Of a stretch of DNA of 64,000 nt, positions 2,658 to 12,320 are shown in pieces. Position numbers and translations under genes: made by a program. Each line of letters begins with the position of its first letter. The stretch's first letter is position 1. The stretch comes from Bdellovibrionales bacterium RIFOXYC1_FULL_37_79. GTDB taxonomy: Bacteria > Bdellovibrionota > Bacteriovoracia > Bacteriovoracales > Bacteriovoracaceae. The stretch spans positions 1 through 64,000 of the forward strand of contig MEQB01000009.1 of NCBI GenBank assembly GCA_001770015.1, in the 5' to 3' direction. The notes under the pieces were generated by a model. It was given only the letters and a program-made list of their open reading frames with translations, was not told the DNA's origin and did no database searches.

Positions 2658-3263
2658 ATGAAAACAATCACCCTTATGTTCATACTTTCAACCAAGCTTT
2701 TTGCCTTTGAATTTGAATTATTTTGCCAGCATCCTGATGAGGAAATTGCCTATACCGCACACCAGATTGCTCATGCCCTAGGAATGGAAGAATGCGCCCA
2801 GGTATTGCCCGAAACAGTTTTGTCTCTCAACCTTGAGGGAACCTCCGTGGTGAATCTGATGCCGCTTACAGTATTTACCAATTTAAAGACCTTGAATTTA
2901 AACTTTAATTTGATTAAAGACATCACCCCTTTAGAAAATCTTCATCAATTAACCAATCTGGATCTTTCAGAAAATATGGATCTGGAAAACCTTTTACCGC
3001 TTGCTTCACTCACTCAAATGGAAATGCTCAACTTAAATGATAACAACATCTCTGATTTGACTCCTTTGAAAGATATGGTCAACCTGGTCAGTTTGTCTTT
3101 CTTAAGAAACACCGTAGAAGATATCTCTCCATTAAAATCTTTATTCTCTTTAATACTATTTATTCCCTACGGGAATCCCATCATTTTTGACCAATTACAC
3201 TGTCCCACCGGTACTGATATATCACCAGTGATTGACCGTTTTTGTCAGCGCCTTGCTTGGTAA
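2658..3263 (+). CDS. Secreted leucine-rich repeat protein
   Basis: A short signal sequence (residues 1-17) is followed by a domain with about five 22-residue leucine-rich repeats (roughly 55-175). Repeats such as LKTLNLNFNLIKDITPLENL and LTNLDLSENMDLENLLPLASL have the LxxLxLxxNxIxDxxPL pattern of SDS22/internalin-type LRRs, which usually mediate protein-protein contact. Cysteines flank the array (CQHPDEE near the N-terminus, HCPTG and RFCQRL at the C-terminus) and may cap it by disulfides. GGAG lies seven bases before the ATG. It is convergent with the next gene, with about 40 bases between stops. Ligand unknown. Confidence 0.85.
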   Translation: MKTITLMFILSTKLFAFEFELFCQHPDEEIAYTAHQIAHALGMEECAQVLPETVLSLNLEGTSVVNLMPLTVFTNLKTLNLNFNLIKDITPLENLHQLTNLDLSENMDLENLLPLASLTQMEMLNLNDNNISDLTPLKDMVNLVSLSFLRNTVEDISPLKSLFSLILFIPYGNPIIFDQLHCPTGTDISPVIDRFCQRLAW

Positions 3264-3990: not shown

Positions 3991-4968
3991 CTACATACCT
4001 TGCACTTTGTGTGGGGCATTCTGCTGAGGATCATTGCTATCTAACTCGCTCTTGCTCTTCGCAGGCAGTCTGCCACGCGGACTTTCATCCCTTCGGCCGG
4101 TTGTCGGATTCGTACCAAAAGACTTTATACGACTATCTACCTCACAAAAACTTTGAACTGCCCGCACCTTGCTATAATCTTTCAAGCTCTCTATGTAATC
4201 ATCAATAAGTGCTCGAGTTCTTGGTACGGTGACAAGTCCCGCAATTTTGTCAAACATCTCCTTATCTTCATTCGAAAGAAGTTGCTGACTGGTTTGGTCA
4301 ACATGAACATACACTCCCGCTTTACTACTTGTACCAAGCCGAATGAATCTTGCTTTCATATTCTCATATTGATGTATGCCTATGCCTCCCTTCGTCTCAG
4401 CATAATTCTTAAGCCCCTCAACCCACTTGGCAGATTGAAATACACTCAGCACGCTATCCTCATGTGCCAACAAACCACCAGGCACATGATTATGACTAAA
4501 CATTTCTTCGCCAAAGTAATTTCCAAACTCCGCTGACCCTCCCTGTTTGCAATATTTTTCCATAAATGGGGAAAGAGATTTATTCAAGTCAAATTTCGCC
4601 AAGTGATACTCTGATTGGCGCAAGCTATATTCTTGCTGAACTTTCTCCAATGATAACGCTGTTTCATCTTCGCACACCCATGATATTGACCTCCCGGTAC
4701 AATTTTCTTTATCGTCCTTGGCCTTTTGTAAAATTCTTTCAGCCCTAGAAAACTTTATCCATGTATCATCATACTTAACCTGGAAATCATATAATTTTTT
4801 TAGATCCTTCTGGGCCTCTATCAATTTAATGAGATGTTTGCTTAAGGTTTTTTTGGCCAATGCATGTGTTTTTTCTATAGTACTGACAGGACAATCTTCA
4901 CTGGCCATAACTTGAACCATTATATTAAGAGCAAGAATTAATGAAAAAGAAAATAAATATTTACCCAC
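3991..4968 (-). CDS. Secreted coiled-coil hypothetical protein
   Basis: A 325-residue protein starting at GTG (4968), five bases after a strong AAAGGAG. A signal peptide (residues 1-23, cleavage near VMA/SEDC) is followed by a long helical region (about 25-145) with heptad-like Leu/Lys/Glu spacing and four cysteines. A mixed middle section follows, and the last 45 residues are basic and disordered (TGRRDESPRGRLPAKSK). No enzyme motif is visible and the family is not recognised. Upstream of its start is a 16-base poly-T tract on the coding strand, which could affect expression. Confidence 0.7.
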   Translation of the reverse strand: MGKYLFSFSLILALNIMVQVMASEDCPVSTIEKTHALAKKTLSKHLIKLIEAQKDLKKLYDFQVKYDDTWIKFSRAERILQKAKDDKENCTGRSISWVCEDETALSLEKVQQEYSLRQSEYHLAKFDLNKSLSPFMEKYCKQGGSAEFGNYFGEEMFSHNHVPGGLLAHEDSVLSVFQSAKWVEGLKNYAETKGGIGIHQYENMKARFIRLGTSSKAGVYVHVDQTSQQLLSNEDKEMFDKIAGLVTVPRTRALIDDYIESLKDYSKVRAVQSFCEVDSRIKSFGTNPTTGRRDESPRGRLPAKSKSELDSNDPQQNAPHKVQGM

Positions 4969-5007
4969 ATATACTCCTTTTTAAGGTGATCTCATGCTCG
5001 TTTCGGC

Positions 5008-5023
5008 AAAAAAAAAAAAAAAA
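5008..5023. repeat. Homopolymer A16 tract
   Basis: Sixteen consecutive A on the plus strand (T on the minus strand), 40-55 bases upstream of the GTG start of the 3991-4968 gene and within a divergent intergenic region. This is promoter distance for the minus-strand gene. Such tracts change length by slippage. Confidence 0.9.
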
Positions 5024-5134
5024 TGAATATGATGTCATTTCCAGTATATCACAAGTGCTTGACCATCTTTATCCGGTTTTACTCACCAAGCATCGATCAT
5101 TTTTCCTACTTTTTTGCAGCATTGAAAAAAAAGT

Positions 5135-5162
5135 CCCATCTGTGTATACTATCACAGATGGG
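5135..5162 (+). promoter_or_regulatory. Terminator-like hairpin in 5' region of receptor-like gene
   Basis: CCCATCTGTG (5135-5144) and CACAGATGGG (5153-5162) form a perfect 10-bp stem with an 8-base loop. It is followed by CAATTTTT on the plus strand and by a T8 run on the minus strand. It lies 22 bases before the ATG at 5185 and after the divergent neighbour's start, so it does not follow any gene end. It therefore looks like a leader attenuator or operator rather than a gene terminator. Confidence 0.6.
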
Positions 5163-5184
5163 CAATTTTTAAAGCAGGTTTATT

Positions 5185-5865
5185 ATGAAAGATACAATGT
5201 TTATCGGCATCGTTGGTGGTGGACATGGTGGTCTGGAACTCCTCAAACTTTTCCATAAATCGGAAAATGTAAAAATTAAATATATTGTGGACGTCAATCC
5301 CAACGCCCCGGCCTTACAAGAGGCCACCAGATTGGGAATCTACACCTCTAACGATTTAGTTGATTGCTTGAAAAATTATGAAGTAAATTATATTTTTGAG
5401 GCAACTGGCGTTCCTAAAGTAATTGAAATCATCAAAGCACATGTTCCAGAAAATAAAATTGCCTGTAGCTCCATTGCCTTAATTCTAATTAATATTCTTC
5501 ACGAAAATCAAACCAATACGGTCAGCTCCATTTTAAGCAAACTTAACAACATCGGCGACGAAATTAATTACAACTCGACTGCAGTTAAACAACTGGTCAG
5601 TGATTTTACCCGACTGGCAGGAATGATGAAAATTCTATCCTTTAATGCTGCCATAGAAGCGGTCAAGGCCGGCGATCATGGAAAAGGTTTTGGGGTGGTG
5701 GCCATGGAATTAAAAGATTCTTCCGACACCGCCAAAACCATTTCCACCACTATCGGTGATATCAACAGTAAAAACACCATCATCGTGGATGATCTGTTTC
5801 ATATTATCAATAAACTCACCAATGAATTTCAAAACACCGAACAAACTGAAAATACGCACCAATGA
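5185..5865 (+). CDS. Rossmann-fold / chemoreceptor-tip hybrid protein
   Basis: A 226-residue soluble protein in two parts. Residues 4-100 form a nucleotide-binding Rossmann fold: IGIVGGGHGG (7-16), a second strand ending IVDVNP, and a later IFEATG, as in NAD-binding domains of dehydrogenases. Residues 110-215 are helical. ILSFNAAIEAVKAGDHGKGF (150-169) followed by GVVAMEL closely matches the hairpin tip of methyl-accepting chemotaxis proteins, which contacts CheA and CheW. The flanking helices are much shorter than in ordinary receptors, and there is no membrane segment or HAMP domain. A cytoplasmic sensor of a nucleotide or metabolite feeding the chemotaxis array is a reasonable inference. 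A terminator-like hairpin precedes it and AGCAGG serves as ribosome site. Confidence 0.75.
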   Translation: MKDTMFIGIVGGGHGGLELLKLFHKSENVKIKYIVDVNPNAPALQEATRLGIYTSNDLVDCLKNYEVNYIFEATGVPKVIEIIKAHVPENKIACSSIALILINILHENQTNTVSSILSKLNNIGDEINYNSTAVKQLVSDFTRLAGMMKILSFNAAIEAVKAGDHGKGFGVVAMELKDSSDTAKTISTTIGDINSKNTIIVDDLFHIINKLTNEFQNTEQTENTHQ

Positions 5866-6011
5866 TTCTTACTTTTTCATTGATAAATACGCACTTTTTC
5901 CACCATGATAAAACAGTTTATTTCAATTGACTCAAATTCATAAGCTCATTATAGTTTCAATATCCATTAAACAGGTAGATAATAATTGATCATAATTAAA
6001 TGGAGGATGTG

Positions 6012-6683
6012 ATGAAAAAAAATTATAAAGTAAATAGCATGGTTGTCCTTATACTCATTGGGCTTATTCGTACTATTGGTTATGCCAGTGATCATGATAA
6101 AGATTATAAAACCCAGGAAGATCAATTGCCAACGCCTCTCATTATGCCCTCTGAGAGCGAAGTCAGTCTGGGAATCTCTGGTGCATGTATTTCTATTTTA
6201 AAGATTAAACCCTTCAACATCACTCATACCTGTTATCATCTGGATGGGTCAGCGGTAGATACGGTGTATTCACGAGAAACGACAGAAAAACTATTTTTAG
6301 ACGGTAAAGCTTATTATGATCAATTTTTGTCTTTTTACATGTCTGCAGGGGTTTATGACCAGACTCCTGGTAGTTTGAAGATTGATTTTCTAGAGGCGGA
6401 ATATGTACCCAATTGTCCAACCATGCCATCTTATCAATGCATAAGTCTTGATGCTTTTAGAAAATATTTATTAATATTTGGATTTAAAAATACGGTTATT
6501 GTTCATCCGGGCCAGATCGTATTTGACCAATATGTAAAAGGTCATCATACGCTGGAGCAACTCCGTAAATGGGGTGCCCAGAAAATTAGAGAGAAATTTC
6601 AAGGCAATGATTGCCATCAAAGAGTCTGTCTCACAGATCAGCAAGTGGAAGATCTGATTGAGTGGGGAAAAATATCCAATTGA
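6012..6683 (+). CDS. Secreted hypothetical protein
   Basis: The ATG at 6012 is chosen because GGAGG (6002-6006) lies five bases before it; an in-frame ATG at 6000 would place that site inside the gene. The 223-residue product has a signal peptide (about residues 1-23, ending GYA/SD) and six cysteines in the mature part (for example GACIS, HTCYH, NCPTM, QCISL, DCHQRVC), suggesting a disulfide-bonded periplasmic or exported protein. It ends with a helical segment (LTDQQVEDLIEWG). No family is recognised. The next gene on the same strand is a lipoprotein about 115 bases downstream. Confidence 0.7.
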   Translation: MKKNYKVNSMVVLILIGLIRTIGYASDHDKDYKTQEDQLPTPLIMPSESEVSLGISGACISILKIKPFNITHTCYHLDGSAVDTVYSRETTEKLFLDGKAYYDQFLSFYMSAGVYDQTPGSLKIDFLEAEYVPNCPTMPSYQCISLDAFRKYLLIFGFKNTVIVHPGQIVFDQYVKGHHTLEQLRKWGAQKIREKFQGNDCHQRVCLTDQQVEDLIEWGKISN

Positions 6684-10444: not shown

Positions 10445-12214
10445 TTACCCCCCGTTTAGATTAGCTAAAGTCCTCTTTAATCCTTCTGGATAAGTGTAGT
10501 AATCCTTTCCTAACAATTGATATGACTTTTGAATATCAACTCTTGTATCCCTCACTCCAAATAATCTTTTCAGGATTGAAAACTTGAACATTACTACTAA
10601 TGGTATCTTAAATCTTATTTTTGAATTGATTTTGAAGCTAGTTAAGTCCTTTATGAATGCTTGCAATGTAATAGTATCCTTGTCAACTATATTATACGAC
10701 TGATAGAAACATGTTTCGGTAGTAATACATTTTTCAATAAGCTTCACCACATTTTGAACATAGACAACATTAGCAATATTATTTCGTTTTCCCCAATGCC
10801 AAACATTTTTATACACAAGTTTTGTGATAAATGTTTGAAAATGATGATTACTACTTTCTCCATACATAAGTCCCGGCCTGATAATGGTAAAGGGCATGTT
10901 ATTTTGAGTACAATATTTTTTAACAAATATTTCCGCCTGCAACTGACTAGCAACCAAATGGTCACGGCCTAGAAAAAGTTGTGAATCTTCGCAAATGACA
11001 TCATGTTTATTTTTTCCATATACGTCCAATGTACCAAGATGAATATATTGTTTAATATGTTTTTGATGAGCAATCATTAAAATGTTCTTCGTCCCCTCTA
11101 CATTAGTCTTATACAACTTTGATTTCTTATGCCAACTATCAAGATCTGCCGCTGCGTGAATAACAACGTCTATACCGTCCATGGCATTTTCAATGGCCTC
11201 CAAATTATCAAGGGCACCTTCCACTATTTCAATTTTATTCAATATTTTATCCAACAAGAGATTAACTTTTGTAATATTTCTTACTAATAAACGTACTTTG
11301 AAATGTTTATGTACTAAATATAACACCAGATTTGATCCAAGTAAGCCAGTGGCACCTGTTACTAAAACATGTTTAGATAGAATTGATGAGTTGGAATTAT
11401 GCTCATAATGTTTTTGAAAATTAAATATTGATTTCCAAAAAAAATGTTGCTGGGGTAGAAATTCCAAATAATGATCTGAATAAAAAAATGATATCTTTTC
11501 AGGAAAAACCGGTGCATACCAGGATTTCTGTATTTTTCGATAATCCACGATGGGATCTTCTGAAGAAAAAATTGAATAAGTTGGGATTGGTAAAGTGAAT
11601 AAATTTTGCTTCAGCCATTTAAGCATTTGATGTGTAGTTAAATATAATTTGTCTGAAAAATAAAAAACCGAATTGGTTTCATTTTCAATGAATCTTAAAA
11701 CGCTGGGTATTCTGGAAAAATCCTTGGGTTCCAAATAGACCCTTCTCATATGATCAGGTCCTATATTGCTTCTTAACAAAATTTTTAGTTTGGTTACAAA
11801 AGGCCAATGCTTTTTAGGATTTATGGGCGGGTTAACTAATGTTATAGTTGAAAAAGTCTCAGGATTTCTCATCACCCACATTAAAGCGGAAAGCGACCCA
11901 AAGCAATTTGCCACCAGATGAATATTTTTTACCGAGAAATGATGATAAAAATCATTCAAACACAGTTTGTAGTTATTATACCAATCATCCATATCAACAA
12001 CATGTTGTCTAGGAAATCTAGGTATAAATAAAATCATGGTATTAGAGGGAAGATCTTCAGGGATTTTAAACCAACTAATATCACTGACTAATCCATGAAT
12101 ATAAACTAAAACAGAATTATTATTTTTATTGGCCTGTGCAGTGGAGTAAACCCAATAGGAAAACTGAGTATTGTCAGAGGAACAAACTTGAAATTGTTGA
12201 AATTTATTATCCAT
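10445..12214 (-). CDS. Alpha/beta-hydrolase fused to NAD-dependent epimerase-like SDR
   Basis: This protein (numbered here from an in-frame TTG at 12229; the ATG at 12214 is residue 6) has two domains. Residues 35-275 are an alpha/beta hydrolase: oxyanion strand VYIHGL, nucleophile elbow VANCFGS with Cys109 where serine is usual, acid SSEDP (Asp225) and base SDH (His253). Residues 286-590 are an extended SDR: VTGATGLLG cofactor loop, DVVIHAAA, and VEGTKNIL. The SDR catalytic YxxxK is replaced by LVASQ (425-429), lacking both Tyr and Lys. The gene is coupled to the PanE-like gene. Together they suggest a small lipid or secondary-metabolite step, but no product can be assigned. No ribosome site is obvious for either start. 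Confidence 0.7.
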   Translation of the reverse strand: MDNKFQQFQVCSSDNTQFSYWVYSTAQANKNNNSVLVYIHGLVSDISWFKIPEDLPSNTMILFIPRFPRQHVVDMDDWYNNYKLCLNDFYHHFSVKNIHLVANCFGSLSALMWVMRNPETFSTITLVNPPINPKKHWPFVTKLKILLRSNIGPDHMRRVYLEPKDFSRIPSVLRFIENETNSVFYFSDKLYLTTHQMLKWLKQNLFTLPIPTYSIFSSEDPIVDYRKIQKSWYAPVFPEKISFFYSDHYLEFLPQQHFFWKSIFNFQKHYEHNSNSSILSKHVLVTGATGLLGSNLVLYLVHKHFKVRLLVRNITKVNLLLDKILNKIEIVEGALDNLEAIENAMDGIDVVIHAAADLDSWHKKSKLYKTNVEGTKNILMIAHQKHIKQYIHLGTLDVYGKNKHDVICEDSQLFLGRDHLVASQLQAEIFVKKYCTQNNMPFTIIRPGLMYGESSNHHFQTFITKLVYKNVWHWGKRNNIANVVYVQNVVKLIEKCITTETCFYQSYNIVDKDTITLQAFIKDLTSFKINSKIRFKIPLVVMFKFSILKRLFGVRDTRVDIQKSYQLLGKDYYTYPEGLKRTLANLNGG

Positions 12215-12320
12215 TTTATTTACAATCAATTTTCTAAATAAGTTATTATTGATTAAATATCTAAGAATTCAAAATAGCTTATTATTTTTCGATAATCAAT
12301 GAGTTATGCAAAGAACTATA

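Follow-up and report, generated by a model that had tools for sequence, protein, structure and literature searches.

What does a chemoreceptor signalling tip do on a small protein that begins with a dehydrogenase-like fold and never enters the membrane? This question is raised by the gene at positions 5185–5865 of the window, the 64,000-nucleotide stretch of contig MEQB01000009.1 from Bdellovibrionales bacterium RIFOXYC1_FULL_37_79 that was analysed here. The gene lies on the forward strand, as do all its features given below, starts with ATG and encodes, stop codon included in these coordinates, a protein of 226 residues that we call P0001. Pfam, NCBIfam and PDB searches and a structure model show that P0001 consists of an N-terminal Rossmann domain joined to a C-terminal MCP signalling hairpin. 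The highest mean Kyte-Doolittle hydropathy over 19 residues was 1.40 and no transmembrane segment was found, as an earlier note on this DNA had claimed; by the same measure P0001 lacks the transmembrane helices and the periplasmic sensor of transmembrane chemoreceptors, and Pfam detected no CheW domain in it. We think it probable that P0001 is a cytoplasmic chemoreceptor that recognizes a dinucleotide, NAD(H) being the likeliest, through its Rossmann domain and alters CheA activity through its shortened hairpin, without methylation-based adaptation.

The structure of P0001 was predicted from a five-sequence alignment, with a mean pLDDT of 77. In the model the NAD-type Rossmann domain comprises residues 5–95 (5197–5469), close to the residues 4–100 assigned to it in the earlier note, and contains five strands and four helices with pLDDT values mostly of 77–95. 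Strand 1 is followed by a GxGxxG dinucleotide loop, GGGHGG (G11–G16; 5215–5232), of which Gly11 and Gly13 are present in all 36 aligned Rossmann-MCP proteins and Gly16 in 33. Strand 2 ends in an acidic residue, Asp36 (5290–5292), which is found in 36 of 36, and so are Thr74 and Gly75 (5404–5409), which follow strand 4 within a family motif, E-x-T-G, whose glutamate, Glu72, is kept in 34. Ala47 and Val79 of the Rossmann half are invariant too. The features by which NAD(P)-binding Rossmann domains are recognized, a β-α-β fold, a GxGxxG loop and an acidic end of strand 2, are therefore all found in P0001. A GxGxxG loop combined with an Asp that ends strand 2 usually marks a Rossmann domain as NAD(H)-preferring, and in NAD-preferring Rossmann enzymes this Asp binds the adenosine ribose.

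Foldseek matched the predicted Rossmann fold to NAD-dependent dehydrogenases, the best match being an acetaldehyde dehydrogenase (4lrt_B, E 4.5e-5). The sequence of this half matched the NAD domain of an acetaldehyde dehydrogenase in the PDB (4lrs, 1e-5), and NCBIfam acetaldehyde dehydrogenase models matched residues 4–76 at 3.6e-7 and 6.4e-7, far under their curated cut-offs. Pfam Rossmann families matched P0001 alone at 0.006–0.02, under cut-off, which we count against our best explanation; its relatives exceed the Pfam cut-offs for GFO_IDH_MocA, DapB_N or NAD_binding_3. Acylating acetaldehyde dehydrogenases and Gfo/Idh/MocA enzymes share with P0001 an N-terminal Rossmann domain, the GxGxxG loop and the strand-2 Asp, but in P0001 the domain is coupled to a signalling output and has no catalytic or substrate domain: the C-terminal catalytic domain of these enzymes is absent, their match being confined to residues 4–76 and the remainder of the protein being MCP. 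As no catalytic domain accompanies the Rossmann domain, its likely role is binding rather than catalysis. The Rex redox-sensing repressor, in which a Rossmann domain reads NADH/NAD+ without catalysis, is an analogue that works in a like manner; its profile match to P0001 is weak (0.004), its output is DNA binding, unlike that of P0001, and the rest of P0001 shows no similarity to it.

The ligand could nevertheless be something other than NAD(H), such as NADP(H), CoA or acyl-CoA, a small metabolite or a partner protein, sensed by what would still be a soluble chemoreceptor. We consider this distinctly unlikely, as the GxGxxG loop and the strand-2 Asp of essentially all members favour NAD(H) and the substrate-binding and catalytic halves of the nearest enzymes are absent, although those enzymes span acylating acetaldehyde dehydrogenase, Gfo/Idh/MocA, DapB and homoserine dehydrogenase, and Pfam gives a weak match to CoA_binding. 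Rossmann-fold sensors of other ligands do exist, for example CheWS of T. denticola (PMC10653840).

The C-terminal half, residues 96–225 (5470–5859), is identified by Pfam, the model and Foldseek as a shortened MCP coiled-coil hairpin. The Pfam family MCPsignal (PF00015) matched residues 111–224 of P0001 with an E value of 1.4e-13 and 51.5 bits against a cut-off of 34.6 bits, and was the sole Pfam match above cut-off; in a PF00015 search of the source genome P0001 again exceeded the cut-off, with 54.9 bits. A profile search of this half, set beforehand as a test that could refute the MCP assignment, thus returned a clear match. The CheA/CheW-contacting tip, KILSFNAAIEAVKAGDHGKGFGVVAMEL, was located by PDB matches and the family alignment at residues 149–176 (5629–5712), so that the boundary of 150–176 given in the earlier note was accurate. 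PDB chemoreceptors match the MCP half at 5e-8 to 6e-4, with Tm14 of Thermotoga the best sequence match of the tip, and Asn154, Glu158, Gly163, Phe169 and Ala173 of the tip are present in all 36 family members. In profile comparisons the tip scored 56.7 bits against family tips and 53.1 bits against the genome's own longer MCPs; with scores this close, it may have arrived together with the Rossmann domain or have been taken from a resident receptor. Compared with the E. coli consensus, P0001 deviates at Gly146 and Lys149, which we take to correspond to Phe373 and Asn376 of Tsr (Tsr numbering) and which we count against our best explanation; Lys149 is the family norm (29 of 36).

Foldseek superposed the P0001 model on 6s1k_E, a receptor chain of the E. 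coli core unit, matching its hairpin tip with a TM score of 0.81 (101 alignment columns; 102-residue chain). DSSP assigned residues 96–225 of the model to one unbroken helix, a weakness for the hairpin reading. The model of a Rossmann-MCP relative, obtained by the same prediction method, has a helix break at residue 196, adjoining the conserved turn Gly, and superposes on 3g67 with a TM score of 0.80 in Foldseek. The superposition on 6s1k_E and the break in the relative's model agree with the expectation that the tip would model as a coiled-coil hairpin.

The helices are short, again as claimed. The spacing from the Thr of the TG pair to the tip Asn is 80 residues in P0001 (T74–N154), in its paralogue P0002 and in two relatives from the phylum (L054 and L055), 84 in the deltaproteobacterial L082, 111 in Acetoanaerobium noterae (T68–N179) and 118 in the long, 284-residue forms of Bacillota, as counted on alignments for P0001 and L077 and by script for the others. 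A methylation-like motif, written as the simplified pattern [ASTG]xx[EQ][EQ]xx[ASTG], is present in 23 of the 36 family members, and P0001, P0002, L054, L055 and L082 contain none. Other soluble receptors may also be without a methylation motif, and its absence limits the claim about adaptation, not the chemoreceptor-type identity. On these sequences we read the short branch as having probably lost the adaptation region while retaining the tip; given the shortened hairpin and the missing motif, the short form probably signals without CheR/CheB adaptation.

The shortened hairpin, the missing motif and the isolated position of the gene could also mark P0001 as a degenerate paralogue or array filler, whose tip binds CheW or other receptors and tunes the array and whose Rossmann domain no longer senses. 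Its tip is divergent, with Val160 where the family has Ala and Lys161 where it has Arg, in addition to Gly146. However, the key residues of both the dinucleotide site and the tip are kept despite an identity to P0002 of 27% over residues 5–183, the open frame is intact, and clade members from another family of the phylum have retained the architecture, so we hold degeneration to be very doubtful and retain the sensing receptor as the preferred reading.

The surroundings of the gene offer little to assign it to a pathway. No che genes adjoin it and its neighbours mostly have no Pfam match, which we count against our best explanation; between 1668 and 8529 of the window, the scanned genes around the receptor are without a Pfam match except for a leucine-rich-repeat protein (2658–3263). 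Farther along, 10445–12229 encodes a 594-residue protein in which an alpha/beta hydrolase domain precedes an NAD-dependent epimerase/3-beta-HSD domain. A consensus scan found a promoter-like TTGAAA-N17-TATACT upstream of the gene (5122–5150, forward strand), in an A+T-rich stretch where promoter-like sites exceed those of shuffled sequences. A repeat scan found a perfect 10-bp inverted repeat, CCCATCTGTG-N8-CACAGATGGG, at 5135–5162, with the -10-like hexamer of that site in the loop; the repeat is flanked by A and T tracts, lies between two divergent genes and is possibly an operator or a bidirectional terminator. As a shared operator it was rejected, since the genome contains it only here when up to 2 mismatches are allowed. 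No Rfam family was found in 4900–6100.

Nine longer MCPs are encoded in the genome. Three of its frames bear CheW and have the size of CheA, one of them confirmed as CheA, and P0001 lies on a contig different from those of all three. P0002, the second gene in the genome with the same architecture, is the final gene of a CheR-REC-CheB/CheA/CheW cluster, in which no flagellar genes were found within the stretch read and near which PEPCK- and enolase-type genes lie. At locus L150 (5101–10182), which holds a CheR-REC-CheB fusion, CheA, CheW and a Rossmann-MCP in one cluster, the only receptor seen is soluble and without a methylation-like motif, despite the methyltransferase and methylesterase encoded alongside.

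The same architecture was sought in related genomes, as the earlier note had suggested, and it recurs, which makes P0001 a short member of a widespread family and no lone oddity. Among 369 genomes of the phylum, 10 contained matches to the Rossmann profile stronger than 1e-15 (our own count). A congener carries the same Rossmann half after cheA-cheW (L040), in a gene whose tip is not seen because it runs into the contig end, and the record of Bdellovibrionales bacterium RIFOXYA1_FULL_36_14 (L083) has the same cheW sequence as that locus. No P0001 orthologue was seen in this congener (G001), whose genome is 85% complete, and this too we count against our best explanation. In one family of the phylum (f8), three genomes encode a Rossmann domain with a short MCP hairpin (L054–L056), and a fourth encodes a Rossmann-CheW fusion (L053) beside cheA, with a Pfam CheW match at 2.9e-41. 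The fusion occupies 949–1764 of L053 and also 1443–2258 of L151. Rossmann-histidine kinases were found in four more genomes of the phylum (L039, L041–L043 and L046).

Outside the phylum, Rossmann-MCP proteins were found in Acetoanaerobium noterae, two other Bacillota records, a Syntrophomonadaceae record and an uncultured deltaproteobacterium, so that the architecture recurs in at least two phyla; in Bacillota it is very common and typically 260–300 residues long. When 398 genomes of the Bacillota record's phylum were searched with the Rossmann profile, 246 had a match at 1e-3, many of these matches likely being ordinary dehydrogenases, and about 107 had one below 1e-15 (counted by eye). Most of the 30 best Bacillota loci (L109–L138) gave Rossmann-MCP frames, usually about 284 residues long. 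The P0001 sequence alone, scanned against genome contigs, gave no matches. The plasmid matches other than that of Acetoanaerobium were set aside as apparently ordinary MCPs, by annotation or because mainly the MCP half was matched, and so was an Azospirillum match annotated as an ordinary MCP. By eye and without profiles, recurrent contexts of Bacillota Rossmann-MCP genes (L111–L115 and L124, also L119, L122 and L133) were observed, either between apparent SpmA/SpmB-type spore-maturation and rluB-type pseudouridine synthase genes or adjoining ParA/ParB-type genes.

Some PAS-sigma-54-Fis activators and longer MCP proteins also begin with this Rossmann domain. At L144 and L149, where it fronts sigma-54-type activators, the gene apparently lies between MeaB-type GTPase and fumarate-hydratase-type genes (by eye). 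The repeated pairing of the domain with MCP tips, with CheW, with histidine kinases and with sigma-54 activators marks it, in our view, as a sensory domain and as an intracellular input module of general use. In a maximum-likelihood tree of 50 Rossmann domains, P0001 grouped with L055, L054 and the CheW fusion L053 (100/99), next to a Bacillota MCP, and P0002 with the deltaproteobacterial L082 (98/87); deeper forks are uncertain because the domains are short and some branches long. From this placement P0001 and P0002 appear to come from different branches.

The paralogue's place in a che cluster and the CheW fusion next to cheA both suggest that the chemosensory members act on CheA. What CheA would control is less clear. 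Nine longer MCPs and three CheA-size frames make a motility array plausible and P0001 is tied to no single pathway, and we regard it as unlikely, though less so than the rivals above, that its CheA/CheW pathway serves not swimming but development, gliding, pili or gene expression. The absence of flagellar genes from the stretch read around the P0002 cluster, with its PEPCK/enolase-type neighbours, would fit such an output, as would the sigma-54 activators and histidine kinases driven by the same domain and the apparent spore-maturation genes that adjoin several Bacillota members; it is also compatible with the sensing part of our best explanation. As to that part, the suggestion of the earlier note that the protein may sense a nucleotide or redox state and report to the chemotaxis array fits the data, supported by the invariant dinucleotide-site residues, the paralogue that closes a cheRB-cheA-cheW cluster, the Rossmann-CheW relative beside cheA and the recurrence in at least two phyla; binding of NAD(H) and signalling through CheA are what we infer from it.

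Among known proteins, Tm14 of Thermotoga maritima (3g67, 4jpb) resembles P0001 as a membrane-free MCP hairpin without ordinary receptor architecture, but the matched chain (212–213 residues) aligns to the hairpin half, has no counterpart of the Rossmann domain, and P0001 has the shorter hairpin. Bacillus subtilis YfmS is a soluble chemoreceptor (PMC7542364) of 286 residues, like the long Bacillota Rossmann-MCPs, and its integrative model with CheW (9a72) is the best Foldseek match of the relative L081. As a direct relative YfmS was rejected: about 173 of its 286 residues align, the size of the signalling half, in a comparison of structure and not of sequence, and judging from the models this Rossmann domain does not seem to form its N-terminal part. 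In CheWS of Treponema denticola, SAM is sensed by a CheR-like domain joined to CheW (PMC10653840). With its soluble small-molecule sensor attached directly to a coupling module of chemotaxis, CheWS follows a logic like that of L053, which by analogy is possibly a small-molecule sensor joined directly to the coupling protein; CheWS differs in that its CheR-like methyltransferase fold is C-terminal to CheW, and it has neither an NAD-type Rossmann domain nor an MCP tip. We found no description of a Rossmann-MCP protein in the open-access literature searched, weak evidence of novelty since subscription journals were mostly outside its scope; the family is apparently uncharacterized and could be described or catalogued elsewhere.

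On our proposal, the ligand of the Rossmann domain is an adenine dinucleotide, NAD+/NADH being the likeliest, and the domain lacks the catalytic half that a dehydrogenase has; ligand binding or redox state would alter the packing of a dimeric hairpin. The hairpin tip would contact CheW and CheA, and kinase activity would then track the internal redox or nucleotide state. In the short form the hairpin is about five heptads shorter on its N-terminal strand and free of the methylation-like motif, and the protein may form a minority among the longer receptors of an array or belong to a small array in the cytoplasm.

P0001 is thus less a unique fusion than one short representative of a cytoplasmic receptor class that is widespread. 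More tentatively, in a proposal that we are slightly inclined to doubt, this may be an undescribed class of NAD(H)-reading chemoreceptors, of Bacillota and Bdellovibrionota type, whose sensory module is shared among MCP tips, CheW, histidine kinases and sigma-54 activators and whose Bdellovibrionota-type branch has been reduced to a tip-only, adaptation-free form that reports redox straight to CheA. The short form raises the question of the minimum chemoreceptor needed to control CheA, and the family, being common in Bacillota and present in a named species, Acetoanaerobium noterae, is open to testing. Known energy-taxis receptors sense redox by indirect means, such as FAD-binding PAS domains or haem. 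If our reading is true, an NAD(H)-binding receptor would provide a direct link from central metabolism to motility.
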